From Branchiostoma floridae (taxonomy: Eukaryota; Chordata; Leptocardii; Amphioxiformes; Branchiostomatidae), in NCBI RefSeq assembly GCF_000003815.2, contig NC_049996.1, positions 1,536,833 through 1,600,832 of the forward strand: a stretch of 64,000 nt of DNA, in the 5' to 3' direction. The notes under the pieces are model-generated. The model did no database searches and had not been told where the DNA came from. It saw only the letters and a list, made by a program, of their open reading frames with translations. Below, piece after piece: positions 10,112 through 60,378 of this stretch; within the stretch, counting starts at the first letter, position 1; every line of letters starts with the position of its first letter. The position numbers and the translations under genes are program-made.

Positions 10112-10157
10112 ACAAATGAACATGCATGTATACCAAATACGAATATACGAACAGTAG

Positions 10158-10340
10158 TGAAACAACAAAGAGGGGCGAGTAGAACAGAAAGAAACAATAT
10201 ATACAAATACCCAGTGACTGACCCGGGAATCGAACCCGGGTCCTCCAGATCACAACACTAGTCGTCTAACTGAGTGAGCCAAAAGCCTGACAGGCATTTG
10301 GCAAGGTCAGTTTCCGCTACTAGAACCCCCCACTGTTACA
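10158..10340 (-). mobile_element. Solo LTR with tRNA-like core and 4-bp target duplication
   Basis: On the - strand it begins TGTAACAGTGG and ends CTCGCCCCTCTTTGTTGTTTCA (TG...CA), flanked by GTAG on both sides (10154-10157 and 10341-10344). The core holds a tRNA-like stretch with TGGCTCACTCAG (A-box-like) and GGTTCGATTCC (B box) within a perfect CCCGG/CCGGG T-arm. Ends match the LTRs at 50025-50480, but the tRNA-like core differs. Confidence 0.82.
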
Positions 10341-10895
10341 GTAGACACCGATTTCTTTTCTGCACTTTGTAAATATCGTTATAGAAAATGATTCAATTAT
10401 GTGGATGTATTCTCATTGGCATTACCGCATACGCTTTGATATATTGAGAAGACGTACGCATATTATAAAAAAGAGACGTTAAGGCAGCATCAATATTAAT
10501 ACTATAATATTAATTCCACAGATGTGCCCAAGATCTTGTTGCGACATCTATATATTTTCCCATGCTTGTTATGTTATGTCAACATAACAATATATTGTAT
10601 TACTAAATAAAGAAAGAGAAAGTGAATCTCTTCAAACTGTATATGATAGAGTAAATCATTTAGTGATGAAGAGCAGATGGACGACGTATCAAATACGAAA
10701 ATCAAATCGAAAGAAGCGATATCCTGATTTATAAGACACTATGTAAGACTGCTGTAAATACCTTGGGTACCCGAGCCTCCAATCCGGAGTGGCCGCTGGC
10801 TCATTAGCCTGGATACCATACCCCAACCTCAAATATCTTTCGTGTTGGGGTCTGGCAGGATGGCTGTAGAAAGGTTCTCGGAAGGCCCTTGATCA
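10341..10895. other. Intergenic DNA after the C1A-like gene
   Basis: AATAAA near 10606 could end a long transcript, but the gene's own signal is not clear because the solo LTR sits directly downstream of the stop. A foldback piece (TAGCCTGGATACC / GGTCTGGCAGGATGGCT) lies at ~10797-10865. Confidence 0.4.
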
Positions 10896-12039: not shown

Positions 12040-13110
12040 TACGGATCTATACACCACTTATACGGGTACGTAAATATTGCCTTTAAGTGGTCTTTCTGTA
12101 GGTCCGTGTTAGTCCTTATTTTCCGGTTTTCCCGTTGTCTTTCAGCAGCTTAAAGATGTCGTAAATGATTTTTAAAACCCCCTTAAAACTTGTTTAAAGT
12201 TCACGTTTATTTGATCTTAAGCCTCTTTACGTCTCATATACAATTGCATTAAGTGGATTATAACGTGTGTATTAGTGCCTTTTCAGCAGCTTAAAGTTGC
12301 CATAAATACTTATTAAAACGCCCTTAAGACATGTTTAAACTTCACGTTTATTTGATGTAAAGCCTCTTTACGTCTCATATACGTGTGCATTAAGAGGATT
12401 ATAACGTGTGTTTAGGTGCCTTTTCAGCAGTTTAAAGTTGCCATAAATATCTATTAAAACGCCCTTAAGACATGTTTAAACTTCACGTATATTTGATCTA
12501 AAGCCTATTTACGTCTCATATACGTGTGCATTAAGTGGATTATAACGTGTGTTTAGGTGCCTTTTCAGCAGCTTAAATTTGCCATAAATATCTATTATAA
12601 CGCCCTTAAGACTTGTTTAAACTTCACGTTTATTTGATCTAAAGCCTGTTTACGTCTCATATACGTGTGCATTAAGAGGATTATAACGTGTGTTTAGGTG
12701 CCTTTTCAGCAGCTTAAATTTGCCATAAATACCTATCATAACGCCCTTAAGACTTGTTTAAACTTCACGTTTATTTGATCTAAAGCCTATTTACGTCTCA
12801 TATACGTGTGCATTAAGTGTATAATAACGTGTTTAGGTGCCTTTTCAGCAGCTTAAATTCGCCATAAATATCTATTAAAACGCCCTTAAGACATGTTTAA
12901 ACTTCACGTTTATTTGATCTAAAGCCTATTTACGTCTCATACACGTGTGAATTAAGAGGATTTAATGTGTCCATATTTTTCTTTTTAGCAGCTTAAAGTT
13001 GTCATAAATACGTACTAAAACACCCTTAAGACACGTTTAAAGTTCCCTCTGTACGTCTCATATACGTGTGCATTAAGTTGATTATAAGGTGTGGATAAGT
13101 GCCATTTTAG
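12040..13110. repeat. ~140-bp satellite, about seven units
   Basis: The anchor CAGCAGCTTAAA recurs at ~12143, 12284, 12425, 12565, 12706, 12845 and 12986 (periods 139-141). Units share GCCCTTAAGAC, TTAAACTTCACGTTTATTTG and CATATACGTGTGCATTAAG. Outer units are more diverged than inner ones. Confidence 0.93.
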
Positions 13111-13457: not shown

Positions 13458-14338
13458 CGAGGGGGGTTCAATAAGTTCTTTGCCTCATCAAGAAATAACA
13501 AGCACAACTCAGATTTTCAGGCACAACTTCATAGTATGAAGTCTTTTATCAATATCCTCCAAATTACAAATCATTGGAGTCATTACTTTCCAGGCATTCG
13601 TTTTTTCTAAATTAGAAGGTAAGTGGGGAGAAAAAGAAGGGTGAAGTGTGATCAGACAATTTGACCTCACACCTCAGGTTGCAGATCAATTGTCCACCTT
13701 TTTTTTTCGTTATCCCTTACCTAACGTTACTGGGTGTCGCCTGCAACATGATGATCACAATAATTTGAATTTTGGTACACATTTATATAAGACTTTATAC
13801 ATGTACGTGGGGTTATCAATAAGTCCCCGAATTTACCGAGAAAAAATAAGCACAGCTCAGATTTCGAAGCATAGATGTCAAGTATAAAGTCTTATATAAA
13901 TATGTACCAAAATTCAAATTAGTGTGATCATTACTTTGCAGGCGACACCCAGTAACGTTAGGTGAGGGAGAAGGAAAAAAACGTGGACAATGGACCTGAC
14001 CTGAGTGTGTGGGTCAATTTGCGCTGCTGGAAGTTAGAAACCCAATTCTTTTTGCTTGAAATAGGAAGAGAATCATTATCAAACATTTTGACAACGTCTT
14101 TTGTTAATTTATGGCATGGGAAACTAGACCCACACATGTCTGATCACAATTCACACAACTTTTTTCTCGCCACTTACCTTCTAATTTAGGAAAAACGAAT
14201 GCCTGGAAAGTAATGACTCCAATGATTTGAAATTTGGAGGATATTGATAAAAGACTTCATACTATGAAGTTGTGCCTGAAAATCTGAGTTGTGCTTGTTA
14301 TTTCTTGGTGAGGCAAAGAACTTATTGAACCCCCCTCG
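13458..14338. mobile_element. Palindromic mariner-type element, ~880 bp
   Basis: Flanked by TA (13456-13457, 14339-14340). Ends CGAGGGGGGTTCAATAAGTT match the first bases of the mariner TIR at 6267. Arms of ~200 bp at each side plus an inner palindrome (~13677-13800 against ~13880-14000) make almost the whole element one hairpin, with ~115 extra bases in the right half. The centre (13806 on) carries another TIR-like end, CGTGGGGTTATCAATAAGTC. Confidence 0.85.
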
Positions 14339-15164: not shown

Positions 15165-17010
15165 GGTCTCCTCCTGTTCGCAGAAACTACGCTTCAAACA
15201 TGCTGTATGTTCAGCAGAAAAAGGCAACGTTTCATAAAACCTTTGAGATGGTATTAGCTAATAGATAAAACGGGGGTAGTGCCCCAAAGTTTGCTTAAGC
15301 TACGCGGGTTCAAAGATTAAACATGTCGTATGTTCAACAGAAATACGCAACATTTCATATACGTCTTGGCAACATATAAGCTAAACGGGGGAAGTCTCCC
15401 CTAGTTCGCTTAAACTGCGCGGATTCAAAGATTAAACAAGTCGTATGTTCAACAGAGATACGCAACATTTCATATACGTCTTGGCAGCATATAAGGTAAA
15501 TGGGGGAGGTCTCCCCTAATTCGCTTAAACTGCGCGGATTCAAAGATTAAACTTGTTGTATGTTTTACAGAAATACGCAATATTTCATATACGTCTTGAC
15601 AACATAAAAGCTAAACGGGGGAGGTCTCACCTAGTTCGCTTAAACTGCGCGGATTCAAAGATTAAACTTGTCGTATGTTCAACAGAAATACGCAACATTT
15701 CATATACGTCTTGGCAACATATAAGCTAAACAAGGGAGGTCTCCCCTAGTTTGCTTAAACTGCGCGGATTCAAAGATTAAACATGTCGTATGTTTTACAG
15801 AAATACGCAACATTTCATATACGTTTTGGCAACATATAAGCTAAACGGGGGAGGTCTCCCCTAGTTCGCTTAAACTGCGCGGATTCAAAGATTAAACATG
15901 TCGTATGTTCAACAGAAATACACAACATTTCATATACGTCTTGACAACATATAAGCTAAACGGGGGTGGTCTCCCGAAGTTCACTTAAACTGCGCGGATT
16001 CAAAGATTAAACTTGTTGTATGTTTTACAGAAATACGCAACATTTCATATACGTTTTGGCAGCATATAAGCTAAACGGGGGAGGTCTCCCCTAGTTCGTT
16101 TAAACTGCGCGGATTCAAAGATTAAACATGTCGTATGTTCAAAAGAAATACGCAACATTTCATATACGTTTTGGCAACATATAAGCTAAATGGGGGAGGT
16201 CTCCCCTAGTTCCCTTAAACTGCGCGGATTCAAAGATTAAACATGTCGTATGTTTTACAGAAATACGCAACATTTCATATACGTTTTGGCAACATATAAG
16301 CTAAACGGGGGAGGTCTCCCCTAGTTCGCTTAAACTGCGCGGATTCAAAGATTAAACATGTCGTATGTTCAACAGAGATACGCAACATTTCATATACGTT
16401 TTGGCAGCATATAAGCTAAATGGGGGAGGTCTCCCCTAGTTCGCTTAAACTGCGCGGATTCAAAGATTAAACTTGTTGTATGTTTTACAGAAATACGCAA
16501 CATTTCATATACGTCTTGACAACATATAAGCTAAACGGGGGAGGTCTCCCCTAGTTCGCTTAAACTGCGCGGATTCAAAGATTAAACTTGTTGTATGTTT
16601 TAGAAATACGCAACATTTCATATACGTCTTGACAACATATAAGCTAAACGGGGGTGGTCTCCCGAAGTTCACTTAAACTGCGCGGATTCAAAGATTAAAC
16701 TTGTTGTATGTTTTACAGAAATACGCAACATTTCATATACGTTTTGGCAGCATATAAGCTAAACGGGGGAGGTCTCCCCTAGTTCGTTTAAACTGCGCGG
16801 ATTCAAAGATTAAACATGTCGTATGTTCAAAAGAAATACGCAACATTTCATATACGTTTTGGCAACATATAAGCTAAACGGGGGAGGTCTCCCCTAGTTC
16901 GCTTAAACTGCGCGGATTCAAAACTTAAACATGCGTATGTTCAAATGAAATACGCAACATTTCATATACGTCTTGGCAAATATATAAACGGGGGAGGTCT
17001 TCCCTTCTTT
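15165..17010. repeat. 115-bp satellite with higher-order structure
   Basis: The anchor TTCAAAGATTAAAC occurs at 15309, 15424, 15539, 15654, 15769, 15884, 15999 and on every ~115 bp to ~16802, with one 113-bp step. Each unit has CATTTCATATACGT and a small hairpin GGGGAGGTCTCCCC. The first and last units are degenerate. Variant marks show that units around 15895-16240 recur around 16585-16928. Confidence 0.95.
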
Positions 17011-19084: not shown

Positions 19085-22000
19085 CTAGCTCTTTTCAGCT
19101 CTTTCTTCTTCTCTCGTATGTACGTCCTCAGCTCTCGTGTGTTCTATTCTCCTTGCCCGTGCTGCAGTTTTGCCTCTCNNNNNNNNNNNNNNNNNNNNNN
19201 NNNNNNNNNNNNNNNNNNNNNNNNNNNNNNNNNNNNNNNNNNNNNNNNNNNNNNNNNNNNNNNNNNNNNNNNNNNNNNCGCTCCACACAGCTGGTTCTAC
19301 AGCTTCTTCTACTATCTCGGCACCCAGCATGACCTCTGTGAATCTCTCATCTGGTTGCTCGTGCACTTTTGCCATGACTCTTACTCCCAGGGTGTTTGCT
19401 ATTTCTTCCGCCAGGGTTTGTCGTAAGTGGTTAAATGTGAAACATCTGGTGAATAGATGACCGACCAAGTCTTCTGTAGCGTTGTGGCAGGTTGGACATG
19501 CTTTTACGGTGTGTCTGGTTGGGATGGTACTGAGGAGTATGAGGTTCTTAAGGTCTCTCTGATACTCTGGCTGTTGTCTTGCTAGTGTCCATAGCTTGTG
19601 GGGTTTGTTGTTTGTCTGGTGGACTCTGTAGAACCTGTGGCAGTTGGTTTCTGATGCAGTGCTTTCCCTCCACCTCTCACTCTCTTGTGTCTGTATTGTC
19701 GTCTTTACTAGCTGTTTCCATGCATCTACTGTAGGGAAGTCTGTTGTCAACCAGTATCCTTCCAGCCACTCCACCAGGCCATATTCCTTAGCAACTTCAA
19801 AACACTCGTCCACAAATCCTCTTGTCTTACTGCCTGGCTTTGCTAGGATGTAGGAGTACAGCCTGATGAGGAACACTCTCTTTGCAAGTACAGTGTTTTG
19901 CAGACTGACGAGCTTTCCGAAAAGGCAGAGTTTACATTTGTCCAGGATTGACTTCAGACTTGTCAGTCCTATCGCACTAAGACACGCCGTCGTCTCTGTC
20001 TGGAAGTGCATGCCTTGCATGTTTTTTGCTCCCCTTCTGTGCACTCTCTCTAGTTTAAGTAGATCGCTGCTTGAAGGGTCCCAAAACTCGCACCCATGTA
20101 GCATGCTGGGAATGACCAATGTGTTGTACAAGGTCTTGTAGATTAGCGGGTTGGGGTGTTGTCCTTCAGAACCTGTTGTCAGAATCGCACTAATCTTTCC
20201 CTTCCCTTTTCTGCATGCCCCCTCAATGGGTTCTTTTGATAACATGTTGGCAGAGTGTTGTACCCCAACATGCGTTACTGTAGCTGTCTCCGGTATAGAA
20301 CTTGTTCCCATTTTCCACAAGGTTGTTTCACTGGCCGCGTTATGGCTGTTAGTTGTCTGCCCAAAGATGATGCATTTACTTTTTCCTGGTGCAAATTCAA
20401 ATCTCCATCTTTTTCCATAACATTCCATCGTGTCGATCATTCTCTGCAGACCTGCCTGTGTGCTCGCCAGCAGACATATGTCATCCGCTAAGGCAGGCGA
20501 AGCACAACTGATCCCTCCTATGCTCACTCCTCCCGACTGTTGCTGTAGTTCGTCGTGTACATCATCTGTTGCTAGTAGATAGCAGGTAAGGGACAATACA
20601 CCTCCTTGGTTCACACCTCTTGAAGTGCTGAATTCTCTGGAAAAACCTCCATTCAGCATGACAGAATATGTACAACCGGTGTGCATGAGCTTGAGGAGTC
20701 TCCATAGTCTGCCATTTACTCCTTTCTTGTACATTTTAAACAACATTCCCTCCAGCCAGACTGTGTCGTAAGCTTTCTTTGTATCAAGGAAGCAGCCGTA
20801 TACTAGGCTGCCTCTTTCAATGTAGTGGTTGATCACTTCTCTCACAATGAAGGCGGTAGTGATGTTGCTGCATCCAACTTGTCCCCCATTCTGGAGTTGG
20901 TGAGGTATACTTCTATCATGTAGCCAAGGATTCCATCTATTAAACAATGTCCTCTCCCATACTTTAGAAATGACAGGTAGCAGCGTCACACCCCGGTGCG
21001 AGTCCATGTCTGTTTTGTTTGTTTTGCCTTGCTTAAGGAGGGGTATCTTCAGTCCTTTCTTAAAGCCCTCTGGGATGTGTTCTTTCTCTCTTATTGCATT
21101 GAACAGCAATGTCAAACGAGCCCACAATGCCTCACCTCCATACTTGATATGTTCGTATACCAGGCCATCTCTGCCTCCACTCTTTCCATTCTTCAAACCC
21201 TGGCAAACAGAGGCTACCTCTTGTGGGGAGAAGGGTTCTTCCAGTATCCCTTCCAGGTTGTTGTAGCTTTCTTCTTCCATCTTGGCTACCTCTTCTGTGA
21301 TTTGGTTCTTGTGTATTTCATCGAAGCGCATGGCTTCCTCTTCTTGTTCGTTGCCCAATGTCTCAAAGTGTCTTGCCCAAGTTTCTCTCACTTGACTGGG
21401 ATTGTTGATGACTTGTTCCCCCACTTTTACTGCTTGCGGCCTGTTGGTTCTGCCCTTTCTCTGTCGGATCTTTTTCCAGAACTCTTTGTCGTTAGATGCT
21501 GCTAGGACTGCCAGCTCTTCATTCTGTTTGGCTTCTTGTAAGAGTTTTGCTTTCCTCAGTTCTGACCTGAACTGGTTCTTCCTCTCTTTATAAGCCTTGT
21601 ACAGTTGGTTCTCTTTTTCTCTTGGTTTTCCCCCTTCTTTCCATTGTATCCAAGCGCTCACTTGTTGCTGGTGCGCTTCTGTCAGCATTGGTGACCAGTA
21701 GGGTTTCTGGTGTTTCTTGCACTTATTTGTGGGTATCACTTCTTCTCCTGTTGTTCTCAGTACTGTTATTATTGTATCAAGATCTTTCTCTATGGACTCT
21801 GCTGACCATGTGGCTGGAGCACTGTTTGCTTCTAGCCTCTCACTCACTCTTTTTTTGTAAGTCTCTTTGATTGTCTGGTCTCCATCTCTGTGCCAGTTGA
21901 GTTTTGGTCTGATCACTGCTTCTTCGAACTCATTTGGTTTGTTGGCGAATGAGGCAACTATGGGGCTATGATCTGATAAGTTGAGGCTGCAATCACCAAT

Positions 22001-22747
22001 CACTTTGCATGAGACTGCTTCTGTCGACAGAGAGTGAGGTATAAGGATGTGGTCTATCGTGGACAAGTGCTTGTCTCCATTAGCTTGAAAGGTATGGAGT
22101 GGTCCCTTGCAGAGATGGCTCAAGTTCAGAGAAAACAAGTCCAGTTCATCTAGTGTGCCCCATAGTTCTTTGCCCAGTTTGGATGGCTGACCTCTGCCTC
22201 TTGGGCCTCCCTGTTTGCCGAGGTCTGCATTAAAGTCTCCGACAAAGATCACTTCACCTTCATTTTCGTACTTTCTGCATAACTCTGTCATAATGTCCAA
22301 GTGCTCTCTGTAGTTGTCTATTGTCAAGCCACTATGTGGCATATAGGCTGCAAAGACAAAGATTTTCTGGCCGCTTTGGAGCCTTACTCTCAGTCCAATA
22401 ATCCTGTCATTGCCATCTTCCAGTTTGTGTACTGCATAGTCAATACTCTCCTTCCACAGTAAGGCAACTCCACCTTGCCCTCTTCTCCAACTTGTGGTAT
22501 GTTTGAATTCCTTTAGCCGGTTATCTGCTCTCCCCCACCCTCTGTGGCTCTTCATCACTTTGTCAAGTTCTGGTAGTGCATCTTGGTATAGCCAGTGTTC
22601 GGTAACTGCAAGGATGTTTATATGAGCCAGCTGTTTCCTTATGAATGGCAGTGCTGTCACTAGTCCTCTGGCATTATAGCAGCCAACTGTTAGCTCTTTA
22701 GATGAATCTGCTGTAGCAGCTCGGGCTCTACTGTTGGTTTCTGTCAT
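19085..22747 (-). CDS. LINE ORF2: endonuclease and reverse transcriptase
   Basis: 1220 residues as read, 34 of them unknown across a 100-N gap near the C-terminus. The apurinic-type endonuclease (~20-270) has VGCYNARGL, EHWLYQ, VGDFNADL and SDHSPIVASF. Reverse transcriptase (~550-830) has the RGVTLLPVISK, DTKKAYDTVW and RGVNQGGVLS motifs, with ALADD at the catalytic box. A CPTCHNATEDLVGHLFTRC knuckle follows at ~1090. It copies the element RNA at the nicked target. The frame is intact except for the gap, so the copy is young. Confidence 0.88.
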   Translation of the reverse strand: MTETNSRARAATADSSKELTVGCYNARGLVTALPFIRKQLAHINILAVTEHWLYQDALPELDKVMKSHRGWGRADNRLKEFKHTTSWRRGQGGVALLWKESIDYAVHKLEDGNDRIIGLRVRLQSGQKIFVFAAYMPHSGLTIDNYREHLDIMTELCRKYENEGEVIFVGDFNADLGKQGGPRGRGQPSKLGKELWGTLDELDLFSLNLSHLCKGPLHTFQANGDKHLSTIDHILIPHSLSTEAVSCKVIGDCSLNLSDHSPIVASFANKPNEFEEAVIRPKLNWHRDGDQTIKETYKKRVSERLEANSAPATWSAESIEKDLDTIITVLRTTGEEVIPTNKCKKHQKPYWSPMLTEAHQQQVSAWIQWKEGGKPREKENQLYKAYKERKNQFRSELRKAKLLQEAKQNEELAVLAASNDKEFWKKIRQRKGRTNRPQAVKVGEQVINNPSQVRETWARHFETLGNEQEEEAMRFDEIHKNQITEEVAKMEEESYNNLEGILEEPFSPQEVASVCQGLKNGKSGGRDGLVYEHIKYGGEALWARLTLLFNAIREKEHIPEGFKKGLKIPLLKQGKTNKTDMDSHRGVTLLPVISKVWERTLFNRWNPWLHDRSIPHQLQNGGQVGCSNITTAFIVREVINHYIERGSLVYGCFLDTKKAYDTVWLEGMLFKMYKKGVNGRLWRLLKLMHTGCTYSVMLNGGFSREFSTSRGVNQGGVLSLTCYLLATDDVHDELQQQSGGVSIGGISCASPALADDICLLASTQAGLQRMIDTMECYGKRWRFEFAPGKSKCIIFGQTTNSHNAASETTLWKMGTSSIPETATVTHVGVQHSANMLSKEPIEGACRKGKGKISAILTTGSEGQHPNPLIYKTLYNTLVIPSMLHGCEFWDPSSSDLLKLERVHRRGAKNMQGMHFQTETTACLSAIGLTSLKSILDKCKLCLFGKLVSLQNTVLAKRVFLIRLYSYILAKPGSKTRGFVDECFEVAKEYGLVEWLEGYWLTTDFPTVDAWKQLVKTTIQTQESERWRESTASETNCHRFYRVHQTNNKPHKLWTLARQQPEYQRDLKNLILLSTIPTRHTVKACPTCHNATEDLVGHLFTRCFTFNHLRQTLAEEIANTLGVRVMAKVHEQPDERFTEVMLGAEIVEEAVEPAVWSXXXXXXXXXXXXXXXXXXXXXXXXXXXXXXXXXXRGKTAARARRIEHTRAEDVHTREEERAEKS
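19179..19278. other. Assembly gap (100 N)
   Basis: A run of exactly 100 N inside LINE ORF2; the true length is unknown, so the reading frame across it is not proven. Confidence 0.99.
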
Positions 22748-23699
22748 AGTGGGTGTAGCCTTGTATCCTGTCTGCTCCTGACTCTGTCTCCTTACTCTTG
22801 TACACTCTCTCTGACACCCACTCTCTGCATCTTACTCCTCTTGGCCAAAAGTTTTCTTCTGTCACCCTGTGGGCTTGGTGCAATAACACATTTACTCTGG
22901 CAAAGGCCATGTCCTTTTGTTTGTTCATCATCACCCTTACAAAAGTTAGCTGTACTCCTTTGCTGTCAGCGTATCTGTAGATTGTGTCTTGTAGCTTCTT
23001 GGTCTCAGTTCTCTTCATGTAGCCCAGGAAGAATCTCTTTCTCTTCAGTCTGTGTCTCTCAATTCCAACAAAGTCTGAGAACTCTGTGCTGTTCTCATTA
23101 TTCTCCTCAATGCACCTCTGTTGTGTGTGGTTAGGGGAACCTGTGACTTTCCCTGCAAATGTTGTTCTCTCCAAGGGTTGTACTCCACCCCCTATTGTGT
23201 CACAGTGCTGTGTGTCGTCAACACCTTCTCTGTGCGCTCCACGCCTGGGTACATCATATGACCATGCTCCTGTCGTGCTTACATGTTTGCTTGGTTGGTG
23301 TTTGTTTCCTCGTCTCTGTAGTCTATCTCCTCTCTCTACTGTTGTGACAGAACTTGCTACCCTGTCTCTCTCCCATGTGTGCAGTTGTGTTCTGTCTTTT
23401 CTGATAGAAGGGCTTTGAGGGTTTCTCTTCCTGTGTTCTTTCGTCCCTTCCGCCCCAACACTGAGTGTCATCTCTGCTGTCTCTAATGTGTTACTACAAG
23501 GGGGGTGTCTTTCCTGCACTTGTGTCACAGCTTCTTTGTAGGTCTTGACCTGTGTATTTTCTGGTTTCCTCCCCTCTTGTAACCTGTTTGTCTGTTTAGA
23601 AGGTCTTCTTTGCGCATTCGCTTTCTCTTCTTGGTTCTCGCCCTCTGGACTTCGACCACTGTCTCCTGGCCCTGTACTGCTTTGATCTGATCTGATCAC
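22728..23699 (-). CDS. LINE second ORF, probable ORF1 C-terminal domain
   Basis: About 323 residues from an alternative (GTG) start, with the frame open further upstream. A long basic low-complexity region precedes KRKRFFLGYMKRTETKKLQD and AFARVNVLLHQAHRVTEENF WPRGVRCREW, a fold-like segment seen in ORF1 proteins of aquatic-animal LINEs (recognition by pattern only). It overlaps ORF2 by 20 bp. It could be a separate ORF, or ORF1 broken or recoded by a frameshift. Confidence 0.6.
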   Translation of the reverse strand: MIRSDQSSTGPGDSGRSPEGENQEEKANAQRRPSKQTNRLQEGRKPENTQVKTYKEAVTQVQERHPPCSNTLETAEMTLSVGAEGTKEHRKRNPQSPSIRKDRTQLHTWERDRVASSVTTVERGDRLQRRGNKHQPSKHVSTTGAWSYDVPRRGAHREGVDDTQHCDTIGGGVQPLERTTFAGKVTGSPNHTQQRCIEENNENSTEFSDFVGIERHRLKRKRFFLGYMKRTETKKLQDTIYRYADSKGVQLTFVRVMMNKQKDMAFARVNVLLHQAHRVTEENFWPRGVRCREWVSERVYKSKETESGADRIQGYTHYDRNQQ

Positions 23700-23883
23700 A
23701 GCCCCCTGTTGTCTGGTCTTTTCTTTGTTTTGTACTGGTAACTGTTCAGGAACCCTGTGTGTTGTCGTCTGTCCTATTTCATCTCTCTTTTCTCTCCCGG
23801 TCCAGGTTGATAATACTGCCCTCGTCAGTCTGGTTTATGTTACAGTTCTCTTCTGTGCTTCCTCTTCTGTGCTTCCACTTCTG

Positions 23884-25191
23884 CTAGCCAGGCCTGTTTC
23901 TGCGTGTCTGCGTGTACCAGTTTTTGTTCGTTGACCTGGTTTCTGTCTGTGTCTGTCTGTGTTGTCTGGGTTTTGTGGATTGTCTCGTGCTTCCTGTAGG
24001 TAGGTATGTTATTGCATCTTCATCCTGAGCTTCGTTCAATGCTTCTTCTGCAGATTTTTCACGACTCCTGTTTCTCCTTGACTGGTTACTTTCAGTGGTA
24101 CTCCCCATTTTCTGACTCTTTATCTGTCCTGTTGTTTCACATGTGAGGCAGCTTGTTGTGGAGCTCTTAGGTTCTAGGTAGTCCAACCTCTCCTTCATCT
24201 CTTTAATTCTCTCGTGTGTTGTAGACAGACCGTACTCTTGCTCTCTGATCCTTTCTTCCAGCGAGAAGGCCAGGCTCTGTACATATTTGGTAATATTTCC
24301 AAACTTAGCCTCTCTTTCTGTGTCAGACTTCTTGGCAGAGCCTTGCAGAGTGTGGATTTCTGTCTCTAGGGAAAGGATCTTGTTGTTGCATGTTGAAACT
24401 GTGGTCTGTATTCTTACTTGAGTTGCTTCTAGTTTCTTCAGCTTCCCTTTCATACTTTCTATATCTTCTGATAATACAAGTTGAGATCCCTTGTTGGTTG
24501 CTAACTCGTCCTGTATACTTTTGAGTTGCCTGTCACAGTGTTCGGTTACATCAACCCTCGCTTCTTCGTGGTGTTTCACCCTATTGCTCATGCTCGTAAG
24601 CTTCTCATTCACTTCTCTCATTTCTGTCTTCAGCATCTCTCTCAGACTTGCATTTTCCGCCAGTATTTTTGCTACCACATCTTCATCCTCCCCCTCTTCT
24701 AGGATAGTGTTCAGCCCTCTACTCCTTGTGATAGCTGGACTCTGCCATGTGTTGTTCTGGGTACCATGGGGGAACATTTTCTTTATCTCTGCCAGGTTCC
24801 TCCCACCTTCTATAAACTGGAATAAGGCACAACAATCTTCTGCTAACCTGTTAGCGACTGGCTCAGTGTTAGCTCTGTATGTTCTTTTCTTTGGCTGCCC
24901 CTGTGGGCAATCCCTCCTCTGTTGTCTGGCTATTGCAAACAAGGCCTCTCTTGTGTGGTTCAGTATGTGTTCGTTGTAGCTACTGGCTGCAAGTACCTTC
25001 CTTTTGGCTGCATTCCTGTCAAGGCCTTCTATGTGGTTCCTCACCAGCTCCAGGATCTCTCTGGGTGTCTCTGCGTCATCTTCAAAGGAGATGTCTTCTA
25101 TCCCTCTGAGCCACATCCCCGAGCCCTCCAGCTCCTCTTCTCCCGTGGCTGCATGTGTGCCCTCCTCCTCTCCTGTCGGCTCACCCTCCAT
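23884..25191 (-). CDS. LINE ORF1, N-terminal coiled-coil protein
   Basis: 435 residues. An acidic N-terminus is followed by a Lys/Arg/Gln-rich domain and a long heptad-rich stretch (~residues 180-340, rich in Leu, Glu, Lys and Gln) predicted to be coiled coil, then a Ser/Thr/Arg/Gln-rich tail. In LINEs such proteins trimerise and bind the element RNA. No Cys knuckle seen. Confidence 0.7.
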   Translation of the reverse strand: MEGEPTGEEEGTHAATGEEELEGSGMWLRGIEDISFEDDAETPREILELVRNHIEGLDRNAAKRKVLAASSYNEHILNHTREALFAIARQQRRDCPQGQPKKRTYRANTEPVANRLAEDCCALFQFIEGGRNLAEIKKMFPHGTQNNTWQSPAITRSRGLNTILEEGEDEDVVAKILAENASLREMLKTEMREVNEKLTSMSNRVKHHEEARVDVTEHCDRQLKSIQDELATNKGSQLVLSEDIESMKGKLKKLEATQVRIQTTVSTCNNKILSLETEIHTLQGSAKKSDTEREAKFGNITKYVQSLAFSLEERIREQEYGLSTTHERIKEMKERLDYLEPKSSTTSCLTCETTGQIKSQKMGSTTESNQSRRNRSREKSAEEALNEAQDEDAITYLPTGSTRQSTKPRQHRQTQTETRSTNKNWYTQTRRNRPG

Positions 25192-42399: not shown

Positions 42400-42538
42400 T
42401 AATCTCCAAGCAAATTCCTCCGGTGGCATAAAACAGTAACATAAGCTGGGGAAAGACTTCAGCCGGCAGAGGGGTAAAATTGGCCTTCCCAGCTTATGTT
42501 ACTGTTTTATGCCACTGGAGGAATCTGCTTGGAGATTA
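42400..42538. mobile_element. Hairpin MITE with 9-bp target duplication
   Basis: A 139-bp element, arms of ~54 bp nearly perfect (TAATCTCCAAGCAAATTCCT ... inverse), flanked by GCTTTGCGG on both sides. Same end motif and duplication length as the copy 170 bp upstream. Confidence 0.93.
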
Positions 42539-43860: not shown

Positions 43861-43964
43861 TAGCCTGGGTACCATCCTATTTCCACCGGGGCTCCTTACA
43901 CTCACTTCCCTAGGGGGTAGAGAGTGTAAGGAGCCCCGGTAGAATACGGATGGCACTCAGGCTA
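43861..43964. mobile_element. Small foldback element
   Basis: Inverted arms of ~45 bp (TAGCCTGGGTACCATCC, GGGGCTCCTTACACTC and their inverses) around a CTAGGGGG loop. Similar ends occur at ~10797 and ~26056. Confidence 0.82.
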
Positions 43965-47221: not shown

Positions 47222-47535
47222 AGTTTTTATGGTCCCTTAAAATATTAAAGTTGCCAGTACATCTGTAACAGATGCTTAAGGGACAGTCAGGGTGGTGCCC
47301 ATCTCCTTTTCTATAGCCCTTGGGCCACACATTTGTGTAAGCCACAACAGCTGGTAGCGAGCCTACTGGTTGGGGTGTGTGTTTAGCTCCCATAGTCTTC
47401 CTCATTAGTGCTGAGTGCTAAGCATCTAGAAAGAAGCATGTACCATTTTTAAAAGTCTTTGGTATGACTAGGCGGGGGATCGAACTCACAACCTACCAAA
47501 TGCAAGGCGCACACCCTACGGACTCGGCCATTTTT
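47222..47535 (-). mobile_element. tRNA-derived SINE (second family)
   Basis: The - strand starts with a tRNA-like head (GGCCGAGTCCGTAGGGTG, GAGTTCGATCCCCCGCC), a long body with GGCCCAAGGGCTATAG, and ends near TTAAGGGACCATAAAAACTG. Its body differs from the SINE at 36075. Confidence 0.72.
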
Positions 47536-47689
47536 TTTATATAGGGGTGGGTACAGAAAATTCAAATACAGGTACAGTTCAGGTCCAGAAGATCAGGTCC
47601 AAGTCTGGACCTGAACCTGGACCTGATTGTGAAAAAATATGAATGGGTGATACTGAAAACAATGGTCATCTTACCATCCGCACCTAGAA

Positions 47690-49899: not shown

Positions 49900-50024
49900 T
49901 AATTGTCTTTCCCTTCCTTGCAAGAACCGCTAATTATTGGTTTAGTTGTCTGACCAGTTTTTCTCCTGAATAGTCTAGCTGACCTACTAGTAGGAGGTGT
50001 TACTAAGGTTCAACCTGCTTGAAT

Positions 50025-50480
50025 TGTAACAGTGGTGTTCAAGGACTGCTAAACCGAAGACGCCTAACGGCTTAAGCCTTTTGGCCGAACGGTTTGCACG
50101 TTCGATTTGTGATCCGGCTGCCCGGGTTCGGCGCGGGTTCGAATCCCGGGAGTCGGGGTGTTGTTTCTTTCTGTTCTACTCGCCCCTCTGGTTGTTTCAA
50201 TGGTTCCCACGCCGGCCCTGTGATTAACAGGCTAGTATGTGCCACACAGGGATGTCGATCTCGGAGATTCGAGGACGAATCTTGAAAAGAAAAGGGGGAG
50301 TAGTGTAACAGTGGTGTTCAAGGACTGCTAAACCGAAGACGCCTAACGGCTTAAGCCTTTATGGCCGAACGGTTTGCACGTTCGATTTGTGATCCGGCTG
50401 CCCGGGTTTGGCGCGGGTTCGAATCCCGGGAGTCGGGGTGTTGTTTCTTTCTGTTCTTACTCGCCCCTCGAATTTCTACA
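50025..50480 (+). mobile_element. Miniature LTR retrotransposon (TRIM-like) with tRNA-like LTRs
   Basis: LTRs at 50025-50199 and 50304-50480 begin TGTAACAGTGGTGTTCAAGG and end in CA. GAAT flanks the whole element (50021-50024 and 50481-50484). Directly after LTR1 is TGGTTCCCACGCCGG (50201-50215), a primer-binding-site candidate. Directly before LTR2 is the purine tract GAAAAGAAAAGGGGGAG. The ~104-bp interior also holds GATTCGAGGACGAATCTTGA, the kind of sequence found before the 3' LTR of Gypsy elements. Each LTR carries A-box-like TGGCCGAACGG and B box GGTTCGAATCC. No gag or pol. Confidence 0.85.
50098..50157 (+). other. tRNA-like core in the 5' LTR
   Basis: With the A-box-like TGGCCGAACGG at ~50081-50092, this stretch ends in CGCGGGTTCGAATCCCGGGAG, a T-arm with loop TTCGAAT. 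An extra CCCGGGTTCGG lies before it. It is repeated at ~50378-50436 in the 3' LTR. Confidence 0.65.
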
Positions 50481-51365
50481 GAATTGACTTGAGTCAAAAT
50501 GTATTCTCCTTTCGAATTACTGTTGTCTTGCAAAGATCCTTTGGTGTTAGTTTTTAACACCTATTTGAGAAGATCAGTGTCAAATGTATAACTCTCTGTT
50601 GTGACTGTAACTGGTAAGTATGCAGGTATGTAGTAATCTGTAAGTTGATTTGCTTGGCTACCATGTGTTTATGAAAGTTGATCATGCTGGTAGTGGTATA
50701 CCTGTCATTTATTCATTAGGACTTTTGAAAATGCTCTATTGTATCAGCTTTTGTTCAACATTGATGCTTGAAATTGTATCCTGCATGCATATACTCATGT
50801 AGGAAAAGTGTCTGCTACCGGGTAAATGCTTAAAGGTGGTTACCAAGTATTCCAATTACTGGTACTTCAACCCTCCCAATTCTCAATTTATGGAACTGAG
50901 AGTACCATATTCTTCCTTTGAGATGGCATTTTTGGAGACAAAATGTGTTTCAAAAGCTGAATCATTGAACATACATGTAGATTTACTTGCAAGTACTAGT
51001 ACAATTTGACTGCCTAAACCACTGTCTTACTTTGACTTTGACTCGATTCTATTTTGATCCACAAATCTTAGCTTGGCATTTCCAGTATCAGCTTCCTGTG
51101 GTCCTATACATGAAGTGCATCTGTTCAATACAATACATGTATGATTATGACAGACAGGGAAACCACAGAACAATCACACTAATTGTAATAATCACAATAG
51201 TTGCTGATTGTCTTCTTTTTATTTTCAGAAATTTTTGAAGACCACTACATAGGAGAGACTGCTAAAGACTGCCTTGTGATCTCTCCTGTATAAAAGGACC
51301 ACTTGGTCTTTTTATCCAGAACAGAAGGTATTGTTGAAAAACTAGGAGAAAACTCACAAATCAAG

Positions 51366-54600: not shown

Positions 54601-57600
54601 TTAGTCAAACTAACCTTTGAACGTAAATTTTCCGTGTTTTTTTTAGGAGAATGCTGCTGAGAGAGGTCTGAAGTTTCTGCCAGGATTTTATGCATTCACA
54701 ATCATCATCAACTTGTTTTCTATATTCTACTCAAGAACTCCATGTAAGTATAACTTTCACTTTAAGAAAAGTATTTTCAGTCGTATACGGTATAGTTTCA
54801 CATTAAGCTAACATGTACTTTGTGATACTTTGTGACATTTTTTATATGCCAGTGACATTTATGATTGATAATGTCCCAGTGATAATTATACTCACAGCGT
54901 GTTTGTTATGTGTAAAAATATCATAACTTTACCACCATCTGTGACATCAGTCACGACTAGTCCATTTACACAGTGGGTGAGGAATGTAGAGGAATTCTTT
55001 CAAATGAGACCGTTGGTAGAACATAGAATATTGGAGATACTTTTTGCACAACTAGAATGCATCGGCTACATACATTTTGTATGGCAGCGAGAAGCAGAAT
55101 TCCAGTTTAAAGCTCTGAGGAAGATACGTCAGCAGTTAACCCTTAAACTGCCAAGCCCGGGTATATCCAGGATATGTCCGGGATAGCGTATTCCCCCAAA
55201 GTAGCAGCTTTGCGCGTGTAGTGCACGAACCCCGGAAGTTAGGGACTTCAGCCTTGTTTTGGGGTTCTTTTTGGCGGTCAGCGGCCAAACCTAGCACTGG
55301 TAGCATTTTATAGGGCTGAAACTCTGGCAGTTTAAGGGTTTTAAGAGTCATTCTGGTTGTGCCAAAGAAATCTCCAATATCATGCTATGGGATTACCTTT
55401 GCCATTGTGAAGTCTTGAATTTCTTTGTTTTTTTTCCAGTGCTTGGGTTTGACAAGATTCCATTGTACGGAGTGTTCATCCTGAGTTTTGGGGGAGGGCT
55501 GATCATGGGACTGTTGGTGTGGATCTTTGTTGTTCCCTGGATGAGGAGAAAAATCCAAGGTATGCAGAAGTTTTAATATTTATCAGGAAATTGGAATACA
55601 TCACACAGATGGATAGCATTGAAACATATTTAGACACTCTCAATGTAAATTGTATATTGTATGGTATTCAAGCAAAATCATAAGTGTAATGTTATGTATA
55701 AAATCATTTTCAATGTCCTTTCATTTACAATATATGGATTGTATTCAAATTCCTAGTAAAAAGAAGTGTAGAGTTTCCAATTGCAGTTAGGAGGGTAGGT
55801 ATGGAGGTAGGGATTCCTTTTTTGTCTCATTTAAAAAAATAAGAATTGACTGAATTGATCCAACAAATGCAGTTAAGCAACGTAAAACTGAAATGCTCCC
55901 AGACACTGATCTTTTATATTATTTAATTATAGTCACTACAGGTTTTTGTTAGGTCCAGCTGGGTACCTAGCCCCAGGTGTAGTTGCCTTTGCATCATTTT
56001 CAGTCCTGCCTTCATGCATTCTTTCGCCTCTTTTGCTTCTCCTGGAGGGTTCACAGGTATACCCGGTGAAGGCCTGGGTTCTGATACTTATTGTTGCTTT
56101 GCACAAGGCTCTCTGGGCCTTTTTTCCTCATGATGCATATTTGCCGGTGGCACGGGCGACCCAGTATAAAAAGAAATGGCCAGCAAAAATGTGTTATGAG
56201 GAAAAGGCCCAGAAAGCCTGCTATGGAGGCTAACTTATAAGTATCCAAATTGTATGTACAGCATTTATGCATAATGTCAGTCCCTACTGGTGTGTGTAAC
56301 AGTGGGGTTCAAGCACCATCAACTGACCAATCCAACTGGTCTGGACCTTTTAGTCTCTAAGTGGCTATGGTGTCAGATCCGTAAGCTGGTGGTTCTGGGT
56401 TCGAATCCCGGTAGCCACAAGACTGTACTGCTCGCCTCTCTCGAGTGTTTCATTGCAATGTGGTCAAAGGCACAAAAAAGTGGAATCCTCCTCTTACATA
56501 CATAACGCTAGCATAACTATTGCTCTTTAATTCCCCTAACCAGACACTAATTTTCTAACCAAGATGATAGGTAGATATTCATATTTGTAAATGTAAGCTG
56601 AAGGAAGCATTGTTTGAAATCTCATTACTACCAGGGCTCGAAATACTTTTTTCTGCATACCTGCACCGGTGCAGGTAACATTGAAAATTACCTGCACCAG
56701 ACAAATTTTACCTGCACCACTCTGAAGTTAGCAAGTATGGATCATACTAAAATTGTTGAGGAACCAGTGCTATTTGTTTCTTTATATTTCATAGGTGGTA
56801 ACAGTCAATGCAGCTAATAACAATCCACATACACCTACATCACAGGAGACGTATGTATAAATTCAGTACATGGACCAGTGCAGGTTAGGTGCAGCAACCT
56901 CCTTGGGTGCAGGTAGACACCAGAAATACCTGCACAGCTCTAATTTTACCTGCACTAACCTGCATATGCAGCCCTGCTTACAAAATCTGGAAAGAAATGT
57001 CCCAGATTCACATTTATTTGATTTCAAGCATGTATTCCCTATTTTGACCCTTGAATAACATTTGAAGACTGCACCTTTCCAGACGCGTGTGGAGAAGAAT
57101 TGAACCTGGTGGACTCAAAACCAGCAGTACCCCATGCGCGCCCTAATCCTGACCCTGGTTTGTCGTAATGTATTTGGTTATGGTGGGGGTTACCAAAACT
57201 TTCCAGAACCCTTTCCTCATAGCTCTTTCTCTGGACAAAATTTCCGGAACATTCCTTGCTATCAAATTTTGGTGTAAACAGCTTATGGTGTCCCTTTGAA
57301 TGTCTGACATGTAACATATCAACACTTAAATTTAACCTACATGTATGTAACACTGATCTTACATGTACATTTATGATTTAGTATTTTTTTCTTCTTCTAT
57401 ATTCTGCCTGAATACAATGTATCAGCTCGTACATACAACATGTACCCTTAACAATTAGATACCGCTAACCAGTAAAATGTCGGTCAGAAACCTTTGTATT
57501 GATTTGTAATAAAAAGATGCAGTCTTTTCTCCACCCTTCTTGGTTTGCTCTGTCAGGTTTTTCACTTGTGTCATGCCTGTCCATTCTCTTTTATAAATGT

Positions 57601-60378
57601 ATTATCCACCCATCTTTTCCATTGCCTCTCCTCTTAAAATTCTGTTTCCCTGGACGGTTCCTTGCAGGATAGTTTTGGCTAGTTCTGTGCTTGAGTCGAC
57701 TGTATCTATCCTTTCAGAAATTCAAGAAGAATCCAAGACGGACCTATCCAGTCAGTCCATGTGGCGCCAATCCATCGAATACATCTCCAAATCATTCCCC
57801 ATTACCATCATCGGCAATGCTGTCAAGTACAATCACGTCGACGATAAAGCTCGCTGTGACATCGTTAACGAGAAAATGGACTCTAACGAGGACGAGAATC
57901 TGATAAACGCATCCCTGCCGAACGGCGTGATCACGATTGGTTCTCCGAATGGTGTGATCGTTCCTGCTGATGCAAACATGAATGCAAAGGAAGATACTTA
58001 CAGCCCTGAAGCCAATGGACATGTGTGCAATGGAGATGTCGTAAGCAATGGCAACGTTGTCAGTAACGGGGACATCGCGAGTAAAGAAGAGGTACATTAT
58101 GGTACGCTGCTGTCGAAAGACGTTGAAGAAAAGTTTGAAGACCATGAAGATCCCACCTCGCATCTGCATATCGAAGAAGTGAAGGACAAACCAGAGGTGG
58201 GGAAGCTGTTCCAGTTTCTACAGGTGCTGACGGCAGGGTTTGGGGCGTTCGCTCATGGAGGCAATGATGTCAGGTATGGAACACTGTTAATATTTTTTAT
58301 CCAGGGCTTGAAAATGATATTTTTAGATATCTGCTTTCATGCACCTAACCTAAGATTTTAGATTTACGGAAAAGAACTGGGCAAATAACATATTTTGAAT
58401 GTCTAGTCAAAAGTAGAATGTATAGAAAAATGATTTTCTGCCCCTCTTTGAGAATTTGAAATTCTATGGCTAACTTCAAAACGTTAAATACGTAATTCAA
58501 CAAAGGTTTCATTTTAGAAACAAATATACATGTACAAATTACATGTACACTGTACAAAAATTATCTTCTGCACCATTGAACCTACATGTACAGTCCAAAA
58601 CTAGTAAGTTATTAGAATTTGAGTGTTAAAATTATAAAAGGAAGTCATAGTCCTCTAAAAGTTAAATGCATAATGTCATGTACATTTGTAGATTCTCTAT
58701 TGTGCAATATCAAGTGTATGTGCAACCATAGGAAAAGCATGCTTTCCAATTTACATGCATTGTATTCAATTAAAGTTGTTTGAAAATATCTTTCTGTCTT
58801 CTTCTGTTGATGATATTACTTGTGAAGGTGTTTGACTTTTAAACCTAATCCAATTTTCAAACACTCACTGTGTTTCTACCTGTTACATCATGACCTGCAG
58901 TAATGCCATCGGCCCCGTGGTGGCGCTGTGGCTCATCTACCAGGAGGGTAGCGTGGCGCAGAAGTCGGCCACACCGCTGTGGATCCTGGCATACGGAGGG
59001 GCTGGCATGGTCTTAGGACTGTGGATCTGGGGACGCAGGGTCATCAAGACTATTGGGGAAGACTTGACCGCTATCACCCCCTCAAGGTGAGTGGAATGGT
59101 CCAAGTGACCCTATGAAGCATATACATTGCTGTATAGTACAATGTAGACATACAACATGTTGTTGCTGTTCAACTGTATGACCTAAAACATGTATGCTAT
59201 GAACATATACAATGTTATTGGGTGGGCCGACAACTCTCTCTTTGCAGCCAGGGGCTGAATTTTGAGTTTAAAATACTGGAGTTAAATTACAAGGGTCTGG
59301 AGTGACTTCCATTTGGCACTAACTTAGGTGACCTCAATACGACAATGTCCCTAGGGTCTTGAGCATATGTCATTCAGCGCTAACTCACATCCTCAATACG
59401 ACTAGCAATTGCTCTAACCGGCCCTACCAAAAGCTAGGTGCACATTTTCACCTGAGTGGAGGGAGTAAAGTTGTGTAAAGTGCCTTTCCCAAGGGCACAA
59501 GTTTGATGGCACATATGTAAACAGATTCCAACCCAGAACCTCTAGGTTCTGAATCGAACACCCTGCCAATTGTACCACAAGACCCCACCAAAAATCTAAA
59601 TGCGGCCTTTCATGTACATGTTATATATCATAAAATGTAAGGTTAATTTTGTGCTTTGTTTCCACAGTGGCTTCACTATCGAGATCGGAGCAGCCACAAC
59701 TGTACTTATCGCTTCCAATATTGGCATTCCTATCAGCACCACCCACTGCAAGGTACTGTCCTTAAACTTCTGTTCTTATTGATTAACCAATGAAAACTAC
59801 ATTAACTTGATTAAGCATGTGTTCTGTATCTGTGTCTATATAGCCAGCTTACATTTTACAACAGCAAAAAGGAAAGCAATCTCGATCCAATTTTAGCTCA
59901 CTGAACAACTAGTCTTCCACTGCTTGTGACAGAGAAGAAAGACATTATGTACAGTATTTACAGGTTCATTGTACTGGGGAAATTCCCCTAGCTCTTTTTG
60001 ATAAGCACAACAGCTTAACGTCCTGTCCTAAGGACTGCAACCCTTTCTGGTAGTGTACATGTCGGGTGAGCAACACAGCTGGAATCGAACTCGCGGCTTC
60101 TAGTCCCAGAGGCAGGGCTGCTTACCACAGGACTACGCACACTGCAACTATTTGCATGCACATGTAACACGATACAATGTACATTTGGGATTATAGATAA
60201 TTTTATGAACACTCTTTATTTTCAGGTTGGTTCCATTGTCTTCGTTGGCTGGTTGAGATCGAAAGCGTCGGTGGACTGGAAACTGTTCCGTAACATCGTG
60301 TTCGCCTGGGTCGTCACTCTTCCAATCGCGGGAGGCGTTTCTGCGGGCATCATGGCCTTATTGCGACTTGCGCTATAA
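51366..60378 (+). CDS. slc20a: SLC20/PiT-type sodium-dependent phosphate transporter
   Basis: Nine exons (51366-51651, 52310-52450, 53916-54001, 54647-54743, 55440-55559, 57718-58273, 58901-59086, 59668-59752, 60226-60378) give 569 residues with all phases matching. The protein carries Na+ and inorganic phosphate into the cell across the plasma membrane. Both inverted PiT repeats are present: [11 protein letters not shown] (24-34) with [14 protein letters not shown] in the N-half, and [16 protein letters not shown] (~424) with [16 protein letters not shown] in the C-half. The family signature [11 protein letters not shown] is in exon 5. The cytoplasmic loop in exon 6 is hydrophilic, with NGD/NGV/SNG-type repeats, and shorter than in human PiT1/2. 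Met51366 or Met51369 is the start; exon 1 has an upstream acceptor (ends 51228), so a 5' UTR intron exists. I cannot decide between PiT1 and PiT2 orthology. Confidence 0.93.
51775..51864. mobile_element. Small inverted-repeat element in PiT intron 1
   Basis: 18-19-bp arms ATTGGACTTACCCAAATT / AATTTGGGTAAGTCCAAT, 53 bp apart. The right arm contains GGGTAAGT, a perfect-looking splice donor. Confidence 0.7.
52310..52450 (+). CDS. slc20a: PiT exon 2
   Basis: Acceptor gatttcag, donor gtaagt. Reads [20 protein letters not shown] then [15 protein letters not shown]. Confidence 0.93.
52811..52988. mobile_element. MITE related to 927-1003
   Basis: Ends ACAGTAAAAGCCGTTTAATTG and CAATTAACTGGCTTCCACTG with TA on the right; longer interior than the kinase-intron copy. 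Confidence 0.7.
53916..54001 (+). CDS. slc20a: PiT exon 3
   Basis: Acceptor cctcag, donor gtaagt. Reads [20 protein letters not shown], a membrane segment, then VEFFILKK. Confidence 0.92.
54143..54161. repeat. Poly-G run
   Basis: About 18 consecutive G in PiT intron 3. Length may be uncertain in the assembly. Confidence 0.85.
54647..54743 (+). CDS. slc20a: PiT exon 4
   Basis: Acceptor tttttag, donor gtaagt. Reads [20 protein letters not shown] then [12 protein letters not shown]. Confidence 0.92.
55140..55338. mobile_element. piggyBac/Kolobok-like MITE
   Basis: Ends CCCTTAAACTGCCA / TGGCAGTTTAAGGG, with TTAA on the left (55136-55139) and TTTTAA on the right. A TTAA target suggests piggyBac or Kolobok. 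It lies in PiT intron 4, about 100 bp before exon 5. Confidence 0.72.
55440..55559 (+). CDS. slc20a: PiT exon 5
   Basis: Acceptor ttttccag, donor gtatgc. Reads [20 protein letters not shown] then a membrane segment and PWMRRKIQ. Confidence 0.92.
56295..56452 (+). mobile_element. LTR relative with a third tRNA-like core
   Basis: Begins TGTAACAGTGGGGTTCAAG and ends CTCGCCTCTCTCGAGTGTTTCA, like the LTRs at 10158 and 50025. The core has GTGGCTA...TAGCCAC (7-bp acceptor-like stem), TGGCTATGGTG and GGGTTCGAATCCC. The 4-base flanks differ, so it may be recombined or decayed. Confidence 0.7.
56632..56976. mobile_element. hAT-like element with TACCTGCACC repeats
   Basis: Ends CAGGGCTCGAAATA and ATGCAGCCCTG. 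Five or more CCTGCACC/GGTGCAGG motifs lie subterminally. Target duplication not clear. Confidence 0.65.
57718..58273 (+). CDS. slc20a: PiT exon 6: cytoplasmic loop and second signature
   Basis: Acceptor tttcag, donor gtatgg. A 185-residue segment: amphipathic start, a low-complexity loop with repeated NGVI/SNGN/NGD motifs, acidic stretch, then [22 protein letters not shown]. Confidence 0.92.
58901..59086 (+). CDS. slc20a: PiT exon 7
   Basis: Acceptor cctgcag, donor gtgagt. Reads [20 protein letters not shown], then [20 protein letters not shown] and [17 protein letters not shown]. Confidence 0.93.
59395..59585 (-). mobile_element. tRNA-derived SINE
   Basis: The - strand starts GGGGTCTTGTGGTACAATTG, with GTTCTGGGTTGGAATC, CCCTTGGGAAAGGCAC and CTAGCTTTTGGTAGGG. 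Same family as 36075-36300. In PiT intron 7. Confidence 0.72.
59668..59752 (+). CDS. slc20a: PiT exon 8
   Basis: Acceptor tccacag, donor gtactg. Reads [20 protein letters not shown] then PISTTHCK. Confidence 0.93.
60005..60145 (-). mobile_element. tRNA-derived SINE
   Basis: The - strand shows GCGTAGTCCTGTGGTAAGCA and CGAGTTCGATTCCAGC, a tRNA-like head, then a short body. In PiT intron 8. Confidence 0.6.
60226..60378 (+). CDS. slc20a: PiT exon 9
   Basis: Acceptor tttcag. Reads [40 protein letters not shown] and stop TAA at 60376-60378. Confidence 0.93.

Follow-up and report, generated by a model that had tools for sequence, protein, structure and literature searches.

The feature at positions 50025-50480 of the window, by which is meant the whole 64,000-nucleotide stretch of Branchiostoma floridae DNA analyzed here, is a real and recently active miniature retrotransposon. 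It is a 456-bp long terminal repeat (LTR) element without coding capacity and represents a complete, fairly young copy of a terminal-repeat retrotransposon in miniature (TRIM). Its family is of the Helenus type, a known kind, in a host lineage missing from the published table. Retrotransposon anatomy, primer identity, integration with 4-bp duplication and recent spread are demonstrated at the level of the sequence itself. The account as a whole, in which a TRIM of the Helenus kind would be transcribed by RNA polymerase III (Pol III), packaged in a Gypsy-like manner, primed by tRNA-Glu and integrated by a partner element, is considered highly probable.

A first-pass annotation had described the outline of an LTR retrotransposon reduced to 456 bp, and all of the parts that it listed were found, each on the forward strand. 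The two direct repeats of 175 and 177 bp correspond to LTR1 (50025-50199; TGTAACAG...GTTTCA) and LTR2 (50304-50480), the latter carrying the GAATTTCTACA end variant and CCTTTATGG in place of CCTTTTGG. The GAAT duplication reported outside the repeats is present in the window sequence at 50021-50024 and 50481-50484. The 104 bp that separate the LTRs comprise, in order, one base, the motif noted after LTR1, which is confirmed as a primer binding site (PBS; TGGTTCCCACGCCGG, 50201-50215), further internal sequence, the polypurine tract (PPT) noted before LTR2 (GAAAAGAAAAGGGGGAG, approximately 50284-50300) and TAG. An internal hairpin, AGATTCG-AGGA-CGAATCT, lies at 50265-50282; it is unchanged across seven aligned representative internal regions and altered in the older copies L089, L090 and L104. 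Each LTR also holds the A-box-like and B-box sequences that had been proposed, with box A (TGGCCGAACGG) at 50082-50092 and 50362-50372, and box B (GGTTCGAATCC) at 50136-50146 and 50416-50426. Directly at box A of LTR1, a hairpin (GGCT-TA-AGCC) is followed by TTTT (50069-50082) and constitutes a candidate start/stop (R) region; the copy of this hairpin in LTR2 (50348-50357) is without TTTT.

The two LTRs of the window copy are 98.2% identical over their first 164-166 bp. Over the full pair, 7 mismatches and 2 gaps were counted, mostly within an exchanged end, where the final 11 bp differ strongly (TGGTTGTTTCA in LTR1 versus GAATTTCTACA in LTR2). Both end forms occur as variants of the family: TGAATTTCTACA terminates both LTRs in L023, L040 and L042 (3 of 40 distinct genome elements), and L037 has one end form per LTR, as does the window copy. 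The window copy is thus a mosaic of two existing LTR-end variants, and the GAAT duplication stands. An alternative reading, in which LTR2 ends at 50469 (CCCCTC) and the GAAT from 50470 is the duplication, had been weighed as most genome matches stop at query base 445; it was rejected because TGAATTTCTACA is the true LTR end in L023, L040 and L042. A stronger mosaic of two subfamilies is found in L077, the LTRs of which, read by eye, differ in their first part and in their ends within one TATG duplication; this end had been missed by the end-reading script.

The distribution of the family was examined in the B. floridae assembly (513,431,437 bases in 431 contigs). A search with the element returned at least 46 matches, of which at least 44 were near full length, at 97-100% identity; since 40 of 1148 candidate places were scored, the copy number is a lower bound. 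The 45 loci that were read cover all 46 matches and collapse to 40 distinct elements when compared by their left flanks. LTR-internal-LTR order was observed in 45 of 45 loci. Of the 40 distinct elements, 34 are bounded at the same ends by an exact 4-bp duplication, a proportion beyond chance, so that the many paired-LTR copies with 4-bp target duplications for which the first-pass annotation had advised a search do exist. Copies without paired LTRs or duplications are not the majority among these 40 elements. The six elements without an exact duplication are L006, in which the CA of the right end is missing, L026, in which the duplication is shifted by one base, L019, which starts behind the PPT of another element, and L010, L017 and L020, which have no duplication. 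Identical LTR pairs were present in 19 of the 40 elements, and tandem LTR-internal-LTR-internal-LTR arrays with common LTRs in 5. The family of the window element has been recently active.

The 15 bases of the PBS match the 3′ end of tRNA-Glu, CCA included. The exact complement of the PBS is found on tRNA-like copies in the genome, themselves located by the PBS pattern, three of which reach the Rfam tRNA score; because their anticodon reads CTC, the primer is identified as tRNA-Glu. Additional sequence of the primer was noticed during the reading of five loci (a number that is not a rate), in which the LTR is immediately followed by much or all of the primer tRNA in reverse complement. In L036, L082 and the third-family loci L093 and L099, tRNA-Glu sequence extends beyond the PBS, and in L052, of the second family, the LTR is followed by ∼50 bases of a tRNA with the anticodon CTT (Lys). 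Most simply, reverse transcription would on occasion have continued into the body of the primer tRNA and so added it to the element. Separately, L076, L079 and L080 are tRNA-Glu copies with an encoded CCA end beside a common repeat, and are either primer-derived or part of a tRNA-bearing repeat.

The proposal that each LTR carries a tRNA-like promoter module held with respect to boxes A and B, but the tRNA-like part proved to be degenerate. With Rfam, the window LTRs matched the tmRNA model (RF00023) of the tRNA clan weakly in the region of box B, at 14.3 bits (50121-50150, LTR1) and 13.0 bits, and ARAGORN at its normal threshold detected no tRNA in the LTR of the window element. Across 77 LTR-start sequences, the same threshold yielded a single tRNA, in L081 (read as Asp), at a tRNA copy outside the LTR module; calls made under relaxed ARAGORN settings disagree on isotype (Ser, Arg, Thr, His and others). 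A full tRNA match was obtained only in the 56-kb relative described below (56361-56419; 33.8 bits, against an Rfam gathering score of 29 bits); its family is the third, in which 20 diverged loci yielded none at an E value of 0.1. For the second family, matches to the tmRNA model at 14 to 19.6 bits were observed in 9 of the 15 loci given, one of which (L077) is not a second-family locus. At the gathering threshold, a set of 20 loci contained no LTR tRNA match, the three matches there being tRNA-Glu copies. Boxes A and B are recognizable by eye in all three families, which diverge in the stretch between the two boxes. For the family of the window element, the presence of a tRNA gene in the LTR is rejected, none having been found at normal thresholds; the module fits a decayed promoter rather than a tRNA gene.

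Two other LTRs in the window have the same ends as those of the 50025-50480 element and other tRNA-like modules. On the reverse strand, a second, related family is represented by a 183-bp solo LTR at 10158-10340 between CTAC duplications (10154-10157 and 10341-10344). Elsewhere in the genome, this family occurs with paired LTRs and at least 43 matches (40 of 420 candidate places scored), and its PBS is TGGCGCCCAACGTGG or TGGCGCCCGACGTGG; members other than the solo LTR have a PBS of the tRNA-Lys type. A third, older family is represented by a 158-bp solo LTR on the forward strand at 56295-56452, where a matching flank duplication is absent; at least 41 matches besides this LTR were found at 71-92% identity (40 of 123 candidate places scored). 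When 51 loci of the related families were run through the end-reading script, 20 were counted as complete, the remaining 31 being repeats of one locus, single ends or loci without an exact start or end motif. Exact 4-bp duplications were present in 15 of these 20 readable elements, and among the five without one, L069 extends into masked sequence and in L090 the end that was read is that of a 5′ LTR. PBS and PPT are also present in the related families, and the tRNA-like module and the primer differ between families.

Several arrangements were encountered among the related loci. In L050, a second-family LTR with a CAAG duplication interrupts, after 19 bases, a sequence whose start resembles that of an LTR of the window family. 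L105 and L108 contain, by eye, tandem repeats of ∼40 bases in their internal regions (GTGAGTAACAGGCTA...TGTGCCACAC). The flanks of L104, L106 and L107 are common to these three copies on three contigs, and the older element therefore sits within a larger repeated or duplicated segment. An exchange of modules at the hairpin was also considered. Among the 42 third-family matches, 11 end at LTR positions 54-62; of the four of these 11 that were read, only L102 meets unrelated sequence, and in L088, L095 and L101 diverged or rearranged sequence continues, by eye, beyond that end. The case for such an exchange is weak.

The hairpin next to box A was analyzed in 58 different 75-base LTR starts collected by motif, for which the counts are not independent events since the sequences are related. 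TTTT was present at positions 49-66 in 40 of the 58, and in 33 of these 40 it was directly preceded by a perfectly paired stem of 4 bp or more, as compared with 2.5% in shuffled sequences and 2.8% at all positions. Four different stems were observed (GGCT/AGCC, GCCT/AGGC, GGTC/GACC and GCTC/GAGC). Covariation was assessed in 13 sequences hand-chosen from subfamilies, with the stem drawn from those same sequences: 84.6% of cells pair versus 69.2% in shuffles, both partners vary in three of the four pairs, and none of 500 shuffles attained the covariation score of 0.449, which fell to 0.263 when the stem was slid by one column. Neither the number of pairs with such two-sided change (88 of 500 shuffles were as high) nor the number of further pair types (105 of 500) was unusual. 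The three rows of the second family are out of register by one base at the stem, which counts against it.

The distribution of TTTT was less uniform. Among 28 window-family loci (a set in which L021/L022 and L004/L024 are the same loci and L014 and L015 are absent), it was found in neither LTR in 17, in both in 9 and in LTR1 only in 2, including the window copy. A recount over 39 of the 40 distinct elements, in which LTRs were located by motif and L032 was missed, gave 25 elements with TTTT in neither the first nor the last LTR, 12 with TTTT in both and 2 mixed cases; the retention of TTTT in every copy is thus ruled out. No TTTT was found in the transcribed body of nine sequences, and 0.11 to 0.42 of shuffles contained as few, such that the depletion is not significant. 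The hairpin is better supported than TTTT.

These observations bear on how a Pol III transcript might begin and end. In the favored account, Pol III would bind the tRNA-like module of LTR1 and begin transcription close to the hairpin, a short way upstream of box A, and the RNA would extend across the internal region into LTR2. It is possible, though doubtful, that the hairpin, TTTT and box A together form a Pol III start/stop signal that sets a short R region, the probability of this reading having been lowered by the recount of TTTT. Under such an arrangement, a start at or just before the hairpin in LTR1 would lie too close to the stop there for the signal to act, and Pol III would stop at the hairpin on reaching LTR2, which would provide the short terminal repeat needed for reverse transcription; transcripts of members without TTTT would need to end at a less effective signal or in flanking DNA. 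The absence of TTTT from the first and last LTR of 25 of the 39 elements counts against this reading.

The RNA would then be packaged by the proteins of an autonomous LTR retrotransposon. We infer a Gypsy-like partner from the 4-bp duplication and from Kojima's inference for animal Helenus. Reverse transcription would be primed by tRNA-Glu, and insertion would be carried out by the integrase of the partner. Pattern searches of the assembly for the PBS followed by a non-C base returned 7 places, of which one was a miniature element and six were places with tRNA-Glu copies; the PPT and LTR start followed by a non-T base returned 6 places, each of which held a miniature element from a further subfamily. 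An autonomous Gypsy partner was found by neither pattern, and a partner whose LTR starts like the miniature ones would escape both.

The main competitor of Pol III transcription is an ordinary TRIM transcribed by RNA polymerase II (Pol II), in which the tRNA-like stretch would be a degenerating remnant without a promoter role. The degeneracy of the module in the family of the window element, the spread of the 25 elements without TTTT and the nonsignificant absence of TTTT from the transcribed body are all compatible with it, and a TATA at LTR position 138 of the 10-kb relative would be usable by Pol II. Yet boxes A and B have stayed recognizable by eye in three families despite differing intervening sequence, and the window element itself contains no TATA, AATAAA or ATTAAA. 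Pol II transcription is, on balance, an unlikely but credible explanation.

Two further explanations concern the way in which the copies arose. Spread mainly by DNA recombination, through unequal crossing over or gene conversion instead of retrotransposition, would be in keeping with the tandem arrays in 5 of 40 elements and the mosaic LTR pairs in L001, L037 and L077; it is made very improbable by the dispersal of copies over many contigs with differing 4-bp duplications, by the identity of LTR pairs in 19 of 40 elements and by the left flanks that distinguish the 40 elements from one another. Movement of a tandemly duplicated tRNA short interspersed element (SINE) by a long interspersed element retains next to no probability. 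The tRNA-like boxes and the short length would suit such a unit, but TG...CA ends, a PBS, a PPT and LTR-internal-LTR order in 45 of 45 loci do not, and the fixed ends with duplications of fixed length in 34 of 40 elements refute it. Retrotransposition of a TRIM with a putative Pol III promoter is thus the preferred explanation.

Other features were recorded in the window. A 5S rRNA-like sequence at 8799-8918 on the forward strand (47.8 bits), beyond which other sequence leads to an ATT-rich tail at approximately 9050-9080, is the only 5S match in the window and looks like a 5S-derived SINE. A non-LTR retrotransposon on the reverse strand (19085-25191) contains a frame with endonuclease and reverse transcriptase domains (PF14529 and PF00078); the frame includes a run of masked bases, and further frames adjoin it. 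Tandem arrays at 1560-2027, 12140-13045 and 15288-17005 have units of 72, 141 and 115 bp, respectively. Long near-perfect inverted repeats at 13729-13953, 42420-42518 and 43885-43940 scored below the gathering threshold against microRNA families and are possibly small DNA transposons. By eye, a SINE-like segment containing sequences similar to boxes A and B lies on the reverse strand at approximately 47260-47600. An open frame at 57597-58361 on the forward strand, ∼1.1 kb beyond the 56-kb LTR, resembles the PHO4 phosphate transporter family weakly (31.8 bits, below the cut-off of 33.7).

Helenus was defined by Kojima in 2024 as TRIMs with tRNA-derived sequence in their LTRs, found in fungi, animals and a plant (PMC10886601). 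According to the available parts of that paper, the hosts comprise fungi, one plant and six animal phyla, with chordates represented by ray-finned fishes and the coelacanth; the elements measure 311-1263 bp, most have the box pattern TRGCY and YGG, and many families have a decayed tRNA-like module (PMC10886601). Gypsy mobilization is inferred there for animal Helenus, and experimental proof of Pol III function is stated to be still lacking (PMC10886601). The window element resembles Helenus, as described in those parts, in its size (456 bp, with two short LTRs and no coding capacity), in the TGGCCGAACGG and GGTTCGAATCC boxes of both LTRs, both of which agree with the published pattern (TRGCY and YGG for box A), in a PBS of 15 bases just after LTR1 that is complementary to a tRNA 3′ end, and in the PPT just before LTR2. 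Helenus families of bivalves likewise use tRNA-Glu and tRNA-Lys, and the 4-bp duplications of animal families (here 34 of 40), the presence of several families per genome and tandem arrays are further likenesses. It differs in its host, for Table 1 contains no lancelet and the main text does not mention Branchiostoma, lancelet or amphioxus (PMC10886601); its assignment is by the anatomy described in the paper, not by sequence similarity to published families. Among the open-licence papers listed for later work and for Branchiostoma, none reports Helenus in lancelets, and a Repbase entry is possible.

The first-pass annotation had viewed the element as an animal counterpart of Cassandra. This was correct in that a miniature LTR retrotransposon carries a tRNA-like box A/box B module in its LTRs, but the kind had already been published as Helenus. 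Small non-autonomous LTR elements of animals also include the TRIMs of bivalves, ants and cestodes (PMC6934838, PMC3532108 and PMC4558846), for which the available text of these reports does not mention a tRNA-like module. What the present analysis adds is a young, well-resolved set of Helenus-type families in a lancelet. Families with common ends and PPT, and with differing module and primer, make part exchange visible within one genome; the tRNA copies that follow the LTR reveal directly which primer is used; and the hairpin by box A marks a specific site at which initiation and termination by Pol III could be tested. The hairpin with its paired changes between families and the primer-tRNA fossils behind the LTR are possibly new.

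Cassandra of plants and Ajax of nemerteans are TRIMs with a 5S rRNA promoter in their LTRs. The window element shares with them an internal Pol III promoter in the LTR, predicted here, whereas its module is tRNA-like and not 5S rRNA-like; Rfam gave no 5S match in the window element. As told by Kojima, Cassandra RNA starts and stops inside the LTR, such that an 18-bp repeat is present at both ends; the passages available discuss terminators and this repeat for Cassandra, and the main text nowhere mentions TTTT, polyadenylation or transcription start (PMC10886601). If the start/stop reading is true, the hairpin beside box A would play, in a tRNA-type element, the part that the 18-bp repeat plays in Cassandra.
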